Below are positions 17,860 through 28,180 of a stretch of 64,000 bases of DNA, in pieces. The stretch is from an uncultured Bacilli bacterium (GTDB lineage Bacteria; Bacillota_I; Bacilli_A; RFN20; CAG-449), in the NCBI GenBank assembly GCA_944332075.1, contig CALVJL010000002.1, forward strand, positions 62,001 to 126,000, in the 5' to 3' direction. Position 1 is the first letter of the stretch. Each line of letters begins with the position of its first letter. Under the pieces are notes generated by a model. It saw only the letters and a program-made list of their open reading frames with translations, was not told where the DNA came from and ran no database searches. Made by a program: the position numbers and the translations under genes.

Positions 17860-17865
17860 AATTAG

Positions 17866-17886
17866 CCGGATTTATCCGGTTTTTTT
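17866..17886 (+). terminator. Intrinsic terminator after the mutS-to-DUF951 operon
   Basis: CCGGA, a TTTA loop and TCCGG, followed by seven T. Confidence 0.88.
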
Positions 17887-17932: not shown

Positions 17933-19864
17933 ATGTTAGAAGTAAAAAGTGTAAAAAAAAGTTATGATCGAGTATTATTCCAAAAACTTAATTTAGTTTT
18001 TCCTTCCACGGGAATGGTTTTGATAACTGGAAAATCCGGATGTGGAAAAAGTACTTTTTTAAATTGTTTAGGCGGACTAGATTATTTTGATGAAGGACAT
18101 GTTTATTATAATAGTAAGTTAATTGAAAAGAAAAACTTCGATGAATTTAGAAAAGAGCATATTTGCTATTTATTTCAAGATTTTGTTTTATTAGAACAAG
18201 AATCTATTTATGAAAACCTTCAACTAGCTAATGAATTAAATAGAAAAAAGAAGTCAGAAGAAGAATTAATTTCTTTATTAAAACAATTTAATTTGAACAA
18301 AAATCTCAATGAAAAATGTAAAAATTTATCTGGTGGGGAAAAGCAGAGACTATCTTTAATTAGAGCGTTAATTAATGATAAAGATATAATTTTATGCGAT
18401 GAACCAACTGCATCATTAGATGAAGATAATAGTCGGATATTATTGAATTTTTTAAAAAATATAGCATATTCACATTTGATAGTTATAGTTAGTCATAATG
18501 AAAAACTTTTAGAAGGATATTGTGATTATCATTATAATTTATACAATAATAAAAAAATTAAAATAGAACATAAAGACGGATTGATAGTATCTAAGCAGCT
18601 TATAAATCCATCAATAAGTTGTCTGATAAAAATCATGTTAAAAGAAATTAAATATAACTTTGGAAAAATATCTTTATCAATTTTATCTTTTTCATTTGTC
18701 TTTTTGATTGCATTACTTTGCTTATCTTTTGCTTTTTCTATTTTTCCATCTGTAACAAACTTAACAAAAAATTATTTTGACTACAATATTTTACGAGTTG
18801 AGGAAAGCTATAAGGAAGAAATAAATGATTTAATTTCCTTTAATAAAGCATCGCGTCCTTCTTTTATCGAACTATCTTCTCTTTTACAAGAGGGCGATAG
18901 AATTTTTTATTCGTTAGATGGGGTAATTAATAAGGGACATATAAAGAACGGCGATAAATATTTAGACATTTTATTTAAACCTGCTTTTTTTGAAAGCAGT
19001 TCGCCTTCAGAAGTTTATCTTAATCAGTTGGCTAATGAATTATTCACAGATGGATATTTTGAATTAGAGTTTACCTTATTAAGCGAGGGAGAGGGGTATT
19101 TACGTGCGAAAGATAATGTCTATTTTCGTTTAAATTTAACGAAAGTTGCTGTTATAGAAGAGTTTTCATTTTTATTAACTCCAGTTATCTATTATTCGTA
19201 TTCAGCTTTCCAAAAGATGTTTTCTGAATATGTTTTGCCATCTGCAAGCAAATTATTTAATAAAAATATTTCACTTTTTGAAAGAATCATCAATGCAAAA
19301 GAAGATGAAGATATTTCTGACTATTCTTTATTAATTTATAGCGATAATCCTAATTATCTTTATGATTATTTTAATTCTAGTAATCGCTTTACTGCAACTT
19401 CCATTGCGCTTGATACTAAAAAGAATTTACTTGATATTTTTTCTTCTCTAGCAAAATTACTCACTCTGTTTGTAGTAATTGCTTTTATTATATCTCTTGT
19501 ATTAGTAATACTGGCATTATACTCTCTTATCATCGCTCATCAAAAAGATATCGCCTTACTAAAAATCATTGGTTATTCAGATAAAGACATTCAAAAAGTT
19601 TTTATTTGCCTTGGTGAAATGATAATTTTCTCAGCTATTTTTTTGACAATTATTTCATATTCTTTTTCTTTAAACTTATTGAATAAAATTTTAAATAATT
19701 ATTTTGAAGTTAATTTAATTTTAAATATTAATAATTTTTTGGATATCTTTGATTATTTTTTGATTTTTATTTTATCTCTGATTATTGGGTTATTGATTAG
19801 CTTATTCTCGTTAATGTCGTTAAAAAAGATTAAACTGACTGATTCATTGAGGGAAGAAGTATGA
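17933..19864 (+). CDS. Fused ABC transporter: ATPase plus FtsX-like permease (first of pair)
   Basis: 643 residues. Residues 1-210 are an ABC ATPase: Walker A GKSGCGKST, signature LSGGEKQRLSL, Walker B IILCDEPTASLD, H-loop VSHNE. The rest is an FtsX/MacB-type permease: one TM helix at about 240-265, an extracytoplasmic part to about 500, then three TM helices with the ALLKIIGYSDKDIQKVF cytoplasmic motif. The layout is that of MacB-like, energy-coupling rather than channel-type, exporters. Substrate unknown. No two-component system or substrate gene is adjacent. The DNA looks richer in A+T than the flanking genes. The stop overlaps the next gene by 4 nt. Confidence 0.85.
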   Translation: MLEVKSVKKSYDRVLFQKLNLVFPSTGMVLITGKSGCGKSTFLNCLGGLDYFDEGHVYYNSKLIEKKNFDEFRKEHICYLFQDFVLLEQESIYENLQLANELNRKKKSEEELISLLKQFNLNKNLNEKCKNLSGGEKQRLSLIRALINDKDIILCDEPTASLDEDNSRILLNFLKNIAYSHLIVIVSHNEKLLEGYCDYHYNLYNNKKIKIEHKDGLIVSKQLINPSISCLIKIMLKEIKYNFGKISLSILSFSFVFLIALLCLSFAFSIFPSVTNLTKNYFDYNILRVEESYKEEINDLISFNKASRPSFIELSSLLQEGDRIFYSLDGVINKGHIKNGDKYLDILFKPAFFESSSPSEVYLNQLANELFTDGYFELEFTLLSEGEGYLRAKDNVYFRLNLTKVAVIEEFSFLLTPVIYYSYSAFQKMFSEYVLPSASKLFNKNISLFERIINAKEDEDISDYSLLIYSDNPNYLYDYFNSSNRFTATSIALDTKKNLLDIFSSLAKLLTLFVVIAFIISLVLVILALYSLIIAHQKDIALLKIIGYSDKDIQKVFICLGEMIIFSAIFLTIISYSFSLNLLNKILNNYFEVNLILNINNFLDIFDYFLIFILSLIIGLLISLFSLMSLKKIKLTDSLREEV

Positions 19865-20673
19865 TCAAAGGAAAAAATATTTGTAAAAAGTTTTCTAAGC
19901 AAGTTATTTTTGATAATTTAAATTTTGAATTTTCTAAAGGATTAATTATTATTAATGGTGAATCTGGTTCTGGAAAAACCACATTATTAAATCTTCTTTC
20001 ATCACTTGATACTGATTATGATGGTGAATTAATTTTTCAAAATAAGAATTATAAAACGATTTTTGACAAGGAAAAATTCCGTTATCAAAACTTTGGCTTT
20101 GTTTACCAAAATTATCATTTGTTTAATTCTTTAACCGTTAAAGAAAATTTAAGTTTTCTTAATGTTGGAGATGCAGAAATAAGTGATGTTTTAACATTAT
20201 GCGGATTGTATGTTTCGTTAAATCAAGAAGCCGGGTCGCTTTCAGGCGGAGAAAAGCAGAGGTTAGCCATAGCAAGAGCTATTTTAAGTCATCCGAAAGT
20301 ATTACTTTGCGATGAGCCTACTGGAGCTTTAGATTATGAAAATTCTCTAGCGATAATGAAACTTTTGAAAAAAATTAGCGAAGAACATTTGGTAATTATG
20401 ATTTCTCATGATGAAGATTTGTCTAGAAAATTTGCTTCTGAACTATATAAGTTGCAAGATTATAAATTAAAGCTCGTTTTCAAAAATGATAGTCCAAGCA
20501 AGATAATTAATAGTTCCAAGAAAGAAAATAAACTCTCATTTAGCTATATGATTACCTATATCAAAAGACATCTTTTAAAGAAAAAAAATTCGGAGCCTTT
20601 TGACAATCTTTGCTTCCTCGCTTGGATTAATTTTTATTTCGCTTTCTCTAATTTTAACCTCATTGACAGTTAA
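19861..20673 (+). CDS. ABC transporter ATPase part (second of pair), frameshifted from its permease
   Basis: 270 codons. Residues 1-215 are a complete MacB-type ATPase: Walker A GESGSGKTT, signature LSGGEKQRLAIARA, Walker B VLLCDEPTGALD, H-loop ISHDE. About 25 basic linker residues follow, ending HLLKKK at the A8 run 20581-20588; beyond it the frame yields a short non-homologous tail. One base removed from the A-run joins this frame to the permease frame and gives one protein of about 911 residues with the same layout as the gene before it. It could be a real frameshift, a sequencing or assembly error, or a slippage-expressed gene. Confidence 0.8.
   Translation: MIKGKNICKKFSKQVIFDNLNFEFSKGLIIINGESGSGKTTLLNLLSSLDTDYDGELIFQNKNYKTIFDKEKFRYQNFGFVYQNYHLFNSLTVKENLSFLNVGDAEISDVLTLCGLYVSLNQEAGSLSGGEKQRLAIARAILSHPKVLLCDEPTGALDYENSLAIMKLLKKISEEHLVIMISHDEDLSRKFASELYKLQDYKLKLVFKNDSPSKIINSSKKENKLSFSYMITYIKRHLLKKKNSEPFDNLCFLAWINFYFAFSNFNLIDS
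20581..20588 (+). other. A8 homopolymer at the frame junction
   Basis: Eight A in a row follow TTTTAAAG. Reading 7 A instead of 8 continues the ATPase linker into KKIRSLLTIFASSLG, the basic residues and first TM helix of the permease. Confidence 0.75.
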
Positions 20674-22597
20674 TGATATTATTTCTTCTTTAGGTTCGCT
20701 TTACGATGAAGAGCGAATACTTTTAAAATCGCAGAATGATGATTCGTTAAATGAGATTTATAGTGTTAGTAAAGAAGAAGTAGAATTAATAAAATCGCAG
20801 TATCAGAATAATTTTTTACTTACGGGCAGTTATTATTTTCAATCTTTTGAAACGCTTTTAGAGGAATCACATCTTAAAATATTGTCAACGTCTTATCCTT
20901 TAACAATGGCTTCATTTTCAGTGAGAAATATCAATGAATACTATCTTTATCAAGATGTAGACGTCTCTTTTAGAGACTTAGAAAATGATGAAGTTATTTT
21001 GATGTTAAGAAATACGGACATAAAACGTATTTGCGATAGTTTGAGAATTGAAAATAATTTATTGACACTTAATGAAGTATTAAAAGATAATCCATTAAAA
21101 TTAGGCTATTTTTTTAAAAATAGCTCTTGGGATTATCAAGATGAGATCACATTGTTTTGCCCATATATAATCAAGGGAAATGAATCGGGATTAGTTCATT
21201 CTTCTGGTTATTTTAATGAGTATGTTTTTGAAGAAAAAATGCATTTTAAATCAAGTGATGATTTAGTTTCCTCAGAACCAATCCCTTGGACATTGAAGAA
21301 AGTATATTATTTAAAATGCCGTGAAAATAATACTATTGGGCTGCTTAAGCGTTTGCTGATGGATAAAAATCTTAATGACTATCGTTTTGATATAATAAAT
21401 TCATTATATGATTCAAGACTGAATCGCGGGGAAGACAATGGTAAAATCTATGTTTATTATGAAAGCAAAAAAGATTTATCATTAGCGGATATTAATACTT
21501 TTTTAAGCGATGAAAAAATTTCAAAATATTCGCTTAATATTCCCCAAACCTATCAAATGATCAATGAATTCGCCCTAAGTGGATTTTCTCTGCCGACATA
21601 TCTTTTCACTAAGGAAGAAGATTATATAGCTTTAGCAGATGATTATTACATAACGGAGAATAATATTATTTATGAATCTCCGGAATTTGATAATATGTCT
21701 TATTCATCAGGATCTTTAGGAAAATTAGGCAATAATGACAATCTTCAAGTTATTAATTATTTCAATCCGCTTATTGGTAGAATACCTGATAATTATCAAG
21801 AAGTGGCTATTTCTTCTGCATTAGCTAAAAAGTTATTCTCAGCAAAATCGCTTGATGAAATAATCAATAAGCCGCTTTATTTTAGCACGCTTCTTATGAC
21901 TTATTATGACGGAGTGAGTTACGAAAATCATTTTGCATACCAACAATTGCTGATAACCGGAATTACTGATAATGATTATGAGTGTATTTATTTGCCAGAA
22001 TATTTTAATGTTTTTTTCTATATTGATAATTTTGATATTCCCTTATCTTCGCTTATTATTGATAGTGTCAACTTGTTTATAAAAAATGCAAATGTTTCAA
22101 ATTATTTAAACAATCTTCAAAACAAATATCCAAATTTTTATTTTTCTAATCCATCTGAAGAAATTAATGACTCGATTAACTCTATGATAAAGTATGTTAA
22201 TATTGCTTTAGTGTCTTTTGGCGGAGTTATAGTTGTTAGCGCGATATTATTAAGCGGACTAACAATGTTTTTATTTATCTCAGAAAATAAAAAAGAAATT
22301 GGTTTGCTTAAAGCTATAGGAATCAAAAAAAGCAATATCTTATTTTTGTATTTTATGTTTACTGCCAGTTTGTTTTTTATCGCTTTTATCTATAGTGCAG
22401 GTGCTGTTTTATTCTTGACTTTAGTTCTTGAAAGAAATCTTGATTTTATTTTTTCCCCATCTTATCTAAAAGTATACGGATTGAGTTTAAGTGTTACGTT
22501 TTTAATTAGTCTATTTGAGACATTTCTTATCTCATCAATTACCGCGAAAAGGATAAAAAACTATTCTCCTTTAACGTTATTGAAAGAAAAATCGTAA
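20600..22597 (+). CDS. FtsX-like permease part (second of pair), probable C-terminal part of a fused ABC protein
   Basis: Open frame of 665 codons from a TTG at 20600. TM helix at about residues 3-25, a large extracytoplasmic domain of about 500 residues, then three TM helices at the C terminus around the KKEIGLLKAIGIKKSNILFLYF motif, typical of FtsX/MacB permeases. GGAG lies only 4 nt before the TTG, too close for good initiation, so separate translation is less likely than joining with the upstream ATPase frame across the A8 run. Nothing in the permease itself looks decayed: no other stop or shift over about 2 kb, which argues against an old pseudogene. Substrate unknown. Confidence 0.8.
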   Translation: MTIFASSLGLIFISLSLILTSLTVNDIISSLGSLYDEERILLKSQNDDSLNEIYSVSKEEVELIKSQYQNNFLLTGSYYFQSFETLLEESHLKILSTSYPLTMASFSVRNINEYYLYQDVDVSFRDLENDEVILMLRNTDIKRICDSLRIENNLLTLNEVLKDNPLKLGYFFKNSSWDYQDEITLFCPYIIKGNESGLVHSSGYFNEYVFEEKMHFKSSDDLVSSEPIPWTLKKVYYLKCRENNTIGLLKRLLMDKNLNDYRFDIINSLYDSRLNRGEDNGKIYVYYESKKDLSLADINTFLSDEKISKYSLNIPQTYQMINEFALSGFSLPTYLFTKEEDYIALADDYYITENNIIYESPEFDNMSYSSGSLGKLGNNDNLQVINYFNPLIGRIPDNYQEVAISSALAKKLFSAKSLDEIINKPLYFSTLLMTYYDGVSYENHFAYQQLLITGITDNDYECIYLPEYFNVFFYIDNFDIPLSSLIIDSVNLFIKNANVSNYLNNLQNKYPNFYFSNPSEEINDSINSMIKYVNIALVSFGGVIVVSAILLSGLTMFLFISENKKEIGLLKAIGIKKSNILFLYFMFTASLFFIAFIYSAGAVLFLTLVLERNLDFIFSPSYLKVYGLSLSVTFLISLFETFLISSITAKRIKNYSPLTLLKEKS

Positions 22598-27793: not shown

Positions 27794-28180
27794 ATGAGAA
27801 AATCAAATTTAGATGTAGCATTTGAAATCGTTTCAAAACGTGATTCAGCAATTAGCTTTAATGAACTTTGGGATGAAATTAAAAAGATTCAAGGTATTGA
27901 AGATGATGCTGAGGGAAATCACATTGCTAAATTTTATACCGCTTTATCTTTAGACGGACGTTTTATCACTATTGGTGATAATAAATGGGATTTAAGAACT
28001 CGTTATACCTTTGATAAAGTTCATATTGATATGAATGATGTTTATGTTGATGAAGATACCGATGAAGTTATCGAAGTCAGCGATGATGCTTCAGAAAAAG
28101 AACTCTTTGATGATAAAGACGAAGATGATGATGAAGACGTCGATGACGAAGAAGACGACGAAGACGAAGACGAAGAGTAA
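27794..28180 (+). CDS. rpoE: DNA-directed RNA polymerase delta subunit
   Basis: 128 residues. Delta binds RNA polymerase in Firmicutes, helps recycling and makes promoters sensitive to initiating NTPs. Residues 1-85 form the HARE-HTH-like folded domain (FEIVSKRDSAISFNELWDEI, KFYTALSLDGRFITIGDNKWDLR). The tail from about 95 is almost entirely Asp and Glu, as in the family. AGGAGG is perfectly placed. The stop TAA overlaps the next ATG by one base. Confidence 0.93.
   Translation: MRKSNLDVAFEIVSKRDSAISFNELWDEIKKIQGIEDDAEGNHIAKFYTALSLDGRFITIGDNKWDLRTRYTFDKVHIDMNDVYVDEDTDEVIEVSDDASEKELFDDKDEDDDEDVDDEEDDEDEDEE

Follow-up and report, generated by a model that had tools for sequence, protein, structure and literature searches.

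An eight-A tract divides an ABC ATPase/FtsX-permease gene in an uncultured Bacilli genome: probably a recent one-base frameshift

In a draft genome of an uncultured Bacilli bacterium, two adjacent open reading frames (ORFs) encode the ATPase and the permease of an ABC transporter in different frames, and the frame changes at a run of eight A's. We asked whether this arrangement is a recent mutation, an error in the sequence, a device for switching or recoding expression, or a transporter made as two chains. All coordinates refer to the window, the whole stretch of 64,000 nucleotides that was analysed, unless another contig is named; the features of the locus are collected in Table 1.

The tract lies between a G at position 20580 and a T at position 20589. 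The ATPase frame starts with an ATG at 19861 that overlaps the stop codon of the upstream partner gene by 4 bases, and it consists of 240 normal codons followed by the tract and a 28-codon out-of-frame tail that ends at a stop codon at 20671-20673. The +1 frame, which carries an FtsX-type permease domain at its end, has no stop from shortly ahead of the tract through 22597; it measures 672 codons from stop to stop, or 665 aa from its first possible start, a TTG situated 11 bases past the tract. As assembled, the ATPase and the FtsX domain are not in one chain. The computed translation of the upstream product is 270 aa with eight A's and 911 aa with seven. The gene also contains GAAAAAAATT twice. 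A preliminary description of this DNA had proposed that two intact frames meet exactly at this run, and that removal of one A would join them in a protein of about 911 residues. The sequence and the ORFs bear out both the intact frames and the fused length, and the frame does change at the tract; however, the frames overlap there, since the ATPase frame reads on for 28 codons.

Table 1. Features of the divided transporter gene and its partner in the window
Feature	Coordinates	Strand	Basis
A8 tract, site of the frame change	20581..20588	+	Sequence; one A more than the sister species (A7 in L038/G001)
ATPase half as assembled	19861..20673	+	ORF, 270 aa; PF00005, E = 6.9e-30
Permease half, FtsX-type, +1 frame	20600..22597	+	ORF; PF02687, E = 2.9e-11; no stops
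GGAG, possible weak ribosome-binding site	20592..20595	+	Sequence; four bases before TTG 20600
Intact partner gene (643 aa), ABC ATPase and FtsX-type permease in one chain	17933..19864	+	ORF; PF00005, E = 4.1e-28; PF02687, E = 4.8e-9

The partner gene carries both domains in one chain, in the order ABC_tran then FtsX. The fused protein had been described as laid out like this partner, which holds for the domain order and not for the size, the partner being about 270 aa shorter. The best sequence match in the PDB is MacB (5lil), covering the ATPase and the first part of the permease. Among the NCBIfam matches listed, all fell below the cut-off; hits from PADLOC were explained by the generic ATPase domain alone, and a viral-contig scan of the tract region gave no match. 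The neighbours of the two-gene operon read as housekeeping genes, with folate genes upstream and a ychF-like gene downstream. A terminator-like hairpin with a T tail lies just upstream of the operon, at 17864-17881; the count of such sites is not above that in shuffled sequence.

We compared the locus with its relatives. The genome containing the window is a 1.47 Mb draft in 20 contigs, estimated to be 98.75% complete, and it is the one genome representing its species. The sole close relative in the collections is a sister species, G001, whose contig CALVKD010000027.1 (L038) is the same record and hence not a second independent witness. Across the gene, the sister is about 98% identical to the window at the DNA level with a single gap, which falls exactly at the tract: the sister has seven A's, and its ATPase and FtsX domains are in one unbroken frame of 911 aa. 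The permease halves are 99% identical, and no second indel or stop distinguishes the two copies. The preliminary description had suggested comparing the tract in close relatives, and the difference of seven A's from eight is what that comparison yields. An unshifted tract within an intact gene in a close relative, the pattern that marks a recent homopolymer frameshift, is therefore found here.

More distant relatives agree. A homologous permease was identified in 17 of 18 genomes of the family, and all homologues other than that of the window and that of L182, which was left out because its match runs off the end of a contig, occupy one frame each, of 907-928 codons, which leaves room for the ATPase. 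In G002, the third genome of the genus (39% protein identity), the frame is fused as well, at 926 codons, and there are likewise seven A's at the position of the tract. Runs of A occur at this position because most homologues encode a lysine-rich stretch there, with AAA and AAG codons, just before the first membrane helix. The longest run of A's at the spot varies from 4 to 8 among relatives and never changes the frame; one genome (L180) has eight A's with the frame intact. No split or shifted frame was found in any other family genome examined. Since all complete family homologues are fused, the fused gene is, as judged from these sequences, the ancestral form and the eighth A is derived. The suggestion in the preliminary description that the split reflects an indel is thus strengthened by the sister's seven A's and by the undivided genes of the rest of the family.

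We then considered selection on the two halves. Relative to the sister, the permease part has 30 synonymous and 10 non-synonymous differences (dN/dS 0.09; 0.091 before rounding), the ATPase part has 6 and 3 (dN/dS 0.13), and the partner gene has 17 and 5 (dN/dS 0.08; 0.078 before rounding). Hence, the permease is constrained as much as the ATPase and the partner gene. Decay of the permease, which the preliminary description had raised as evidence against its reading, is not seen in this comparison, there being no other stops. With neither decay nor further stops or indels, the split would be too recent for decay, or not real, or corrected at expression, alternatives that sequence alone cannot separate. 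Equal constraint on both sides of the tract and the lack of a second lesion fit a consensus error or a corrected frameshift equally well.

How often do such runs change length in this lineage? From 1.43 Mb read in the window's genome and 0.94 Mb in the sister's, about 431 kb could be aligned at a mean identity of 96%. Among the sister's A/T runs of 7 or more, 15 of 102 in non-coding DNA have another length in the window's genome, from which we conclude that slippage during replication happens often here. In coding stretches the count is 3 of 188, the other 185 having identical length. Thus, slippage mutation is common in the lineage but is purged from genes. One of the three changed coding runs (L134) is near a gene end, another (L146) is at a gene junction, and the tract described here is the only change in the middle of a gene; a single recent change in coding DNA is close to what mutation would be expected to yield. 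Sense-strand A8 runs are numerous, the 1.43 Mb containing 88 within ORFs of 100 aa or more, so that an A8 run alone is not unusual, whereas a frame change at one is. Sense A7 and A8 runs together number some 840 in ORFs of this genome, and one recent frameshift among them is unremarkable.

A broader search for broken genes gave few comparable cases. A full-length counterpart exists for 402 sister ORFs, and 8 of these were marked as disrupted in the window's genome, most of them by a stop in the first few dozen codons, probably reflecting start-site ambiguity, or by a change near one end; the gene studied here is absent from the 8 because it is cut by a stretch boundary in the sister. A simple scan of the window's genome for frame splits at A/T runs returned 12 candidates. 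We inspected six other candidate sites: five resemble normal boundaries between genes, and the sixth is a pair of transposase frames with a -1 shift. A candidate at L146:2312 was rejected, as it consists of two separate genes. On the minus strand of L094 (G000:C6), near position 2428, two overlapping frames whose translations resemble an IS3-type transposase orfA/orfB pair meet at an A7 run in the -1 register, a layout that is usual for programmed -1 frameshifting and opposite in direction to the shift in the window. Near 17363-18210 of L092, the counterpart of a sister ORF (L157:3169-4059) is out of frame in its last fifth, with one extra T in a TTT; this site is possibly another recent frameshift, away from any long homopolymer. 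ORF 27794-28180 of the window ends in an acidic Asp/Glu repeat, in which the window and the sister differ in length by six bases, in frame, at position 28167.

Taking these observations together, we consider it somewhat probable that the window carries a recent frameshift allele produced by ordinary replication slippage, with no dedicated recoding or switching device; the likelihoods given here and below are judgements rather than computed values. Slippage would have added one A to a run of seven in the sequenced lineage or strain, breaking what was formerly a single 911-aa ABC ATPase/FtsX-permease gene into an ATPase with a wrong tail of 28 residues and an orphan permease frame. The result would be loss of function at the level of the strain, or else an allele that segregates in its population. 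We infer that the DNA does contain the eighth A, and the transporter would then be lost or reduced. A genuine mutation of this kind, with strain-level loss or polymorphism, was absent from the explanations listed in the preliminary description; we rank it first, as the moderately likely one.

The principal rival holds that the organism has a normal fused gene and that the eighth A arose as an error of assembly or of the consensus, or is a minority variant picked by the assembler. The site is a homopolymer, the genome is a draft in 20 contigs, the permease shows no decay, and all relatives are fused, each of which is as expected of an error. A systematic homopolymer error in the assembly can be rejected, given the agreement of 185 of the 188 coding runs with the sister. 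The same agreement weighs against an error at the tract, as the only mid-gene change. We regard an isolated error as doubtful, while giving it appreciable weight.

Alternatively, the tract could flip between seven A's (fused, on) and eight A's (split, off) by slipped-strand mispairing. Its length is compatible with such phase variation, since poly-A tracts of 8-9 switch wbeL and manA in Vibrio cholerae O1 (PMC3441752); both frames are intact, and the product is a membrane transporter, a class that is often phase variable (PMC3711429). Nevertheless, the sister has only A7, one allele is known per genome, relatives with 4 to 8 A's at the spot are never shifted, and the tract is not special, there being 88 other A8 runs on the sense strand of coding stretches in this genome. 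We therefore judge phase variation improbable. We attach similarly little likelihood to the broader proposal that the tract works as a true on/off contingency tract, or as one that slippage rescues, in either case yielding free ATPase alongside fused transporter, and that the A-rich lysine stretch is a recurrent switching hotspot in the family. Mixed tract lengths, if they exist, would turn the locus into a phase switch open to testing, in a group represented here by metagenome-assembled genomes only.

Transcriptional slippage at the eight A's could restore the frame in some mRNA, and the cell would then make fused transporter as well as free ATPase. Such slippage is known at poly-A runs in endosymbionts (PMC3017870) and at the A11 run of Citrobacter tssM (PMC4256274), and the retained constraint on the permease is consistent with it. 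However, our computed translations show that the frame is restored only by the loss of one A or the gain of two (911-912 aa), whereas the gain of one A gives a product of 247 aa; in the transcriptomes of E. coli and Buchnera, homopolymer slippage consists mostly of one-base insertions, with deletions rare (PMC5574713), so the commonest product would not have the restored frame. Moreover, slippage by E. coli RNA polymerase was undetectable on fewer than eight A's in a reporter study (PMC6260861), placing the tract at the lower limit, and the shifted state is not conserved, all complete relatives reading straight through. We consider this reading very improbable. Phase switching and transcriptional slippage had both been put forward in the preliminary description; both are conceivable, and with one genome and no conserved shifted state neither gains positive support.

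The ATPase and the permease could instead be made as two functional chains, with the permease initiated at TTG 20600 behind the GGAG. In many FtsX-type transporters the ATPase is a chain of its own, the closest solved ATPases include LolD and BceA, and the TTG of the window is a CTG in the sister. In addition, most frame transitions in ABC-transporter genes detected by GeneTack were put down to translational coupling (PMC3711429). Against this, the TTG is a weak start with a short spacer to the GGAG, and it falls within the ATPase frame that is itself translated, whose stop is 71 bases further on; the ATPase would carry 28 wrong residues and the permease would lack its cytoplasmic leader. The one-base difference between TTG and CTG could easily be chance. 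Such a fission is accordingly hardly likely. Programmed -1 ribosomal frameshifting is rejected, since the shift needed is +1 and the -1 frame (equal to the nine-A frame) stops within a few codons; RNA downstream of the tract has no more structure than shuffled sequence (z 0.40) and no repeat.

Our analysis has a practical consequence for annotation: where adjacent ORFs meet at a homopolymer in a draft genome, relatives should be checked before a two-subunit transporter or recoding is annotated. The ancestral gene resembles MacB-like permeases in that a single chain has the ATPase at its N-terminus and the FtsX permease at its C-terminus, and differs in belonging to an unequal pair, of 643 and 911 aa. 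The tract resembles those of wbeL and manA of V. cholerae O1 in its length of about 8 A's and in an on/off effect of one base, but variation there is seen within a strain and across isolates (PMC3441752), while here there is one allele per genome. In Citrobacter rodentium tssM, an A run also precedes the frame change, but it has 11 A's, insertion restores the frame and the effect is proven with RNA (PMC4256274), in contrast to the eight A's here, where the usual insertion leads to the wrong frame; more generally, tssM and the Blochmannia cases (PMC3017870) have longer tracts, conserved shifted states or RNA evidence. The closest class is that of poly-A/T frameshift alleles, as among the GeneTack fs-genes (PMC3711429) and in Blochmannia (PMC3017870); with no difference of note beyond being a single instance in a draft genome, the locus shares with them a one-base indel in an A run, frames that are otherwise intact, and relatives that are unshifted.
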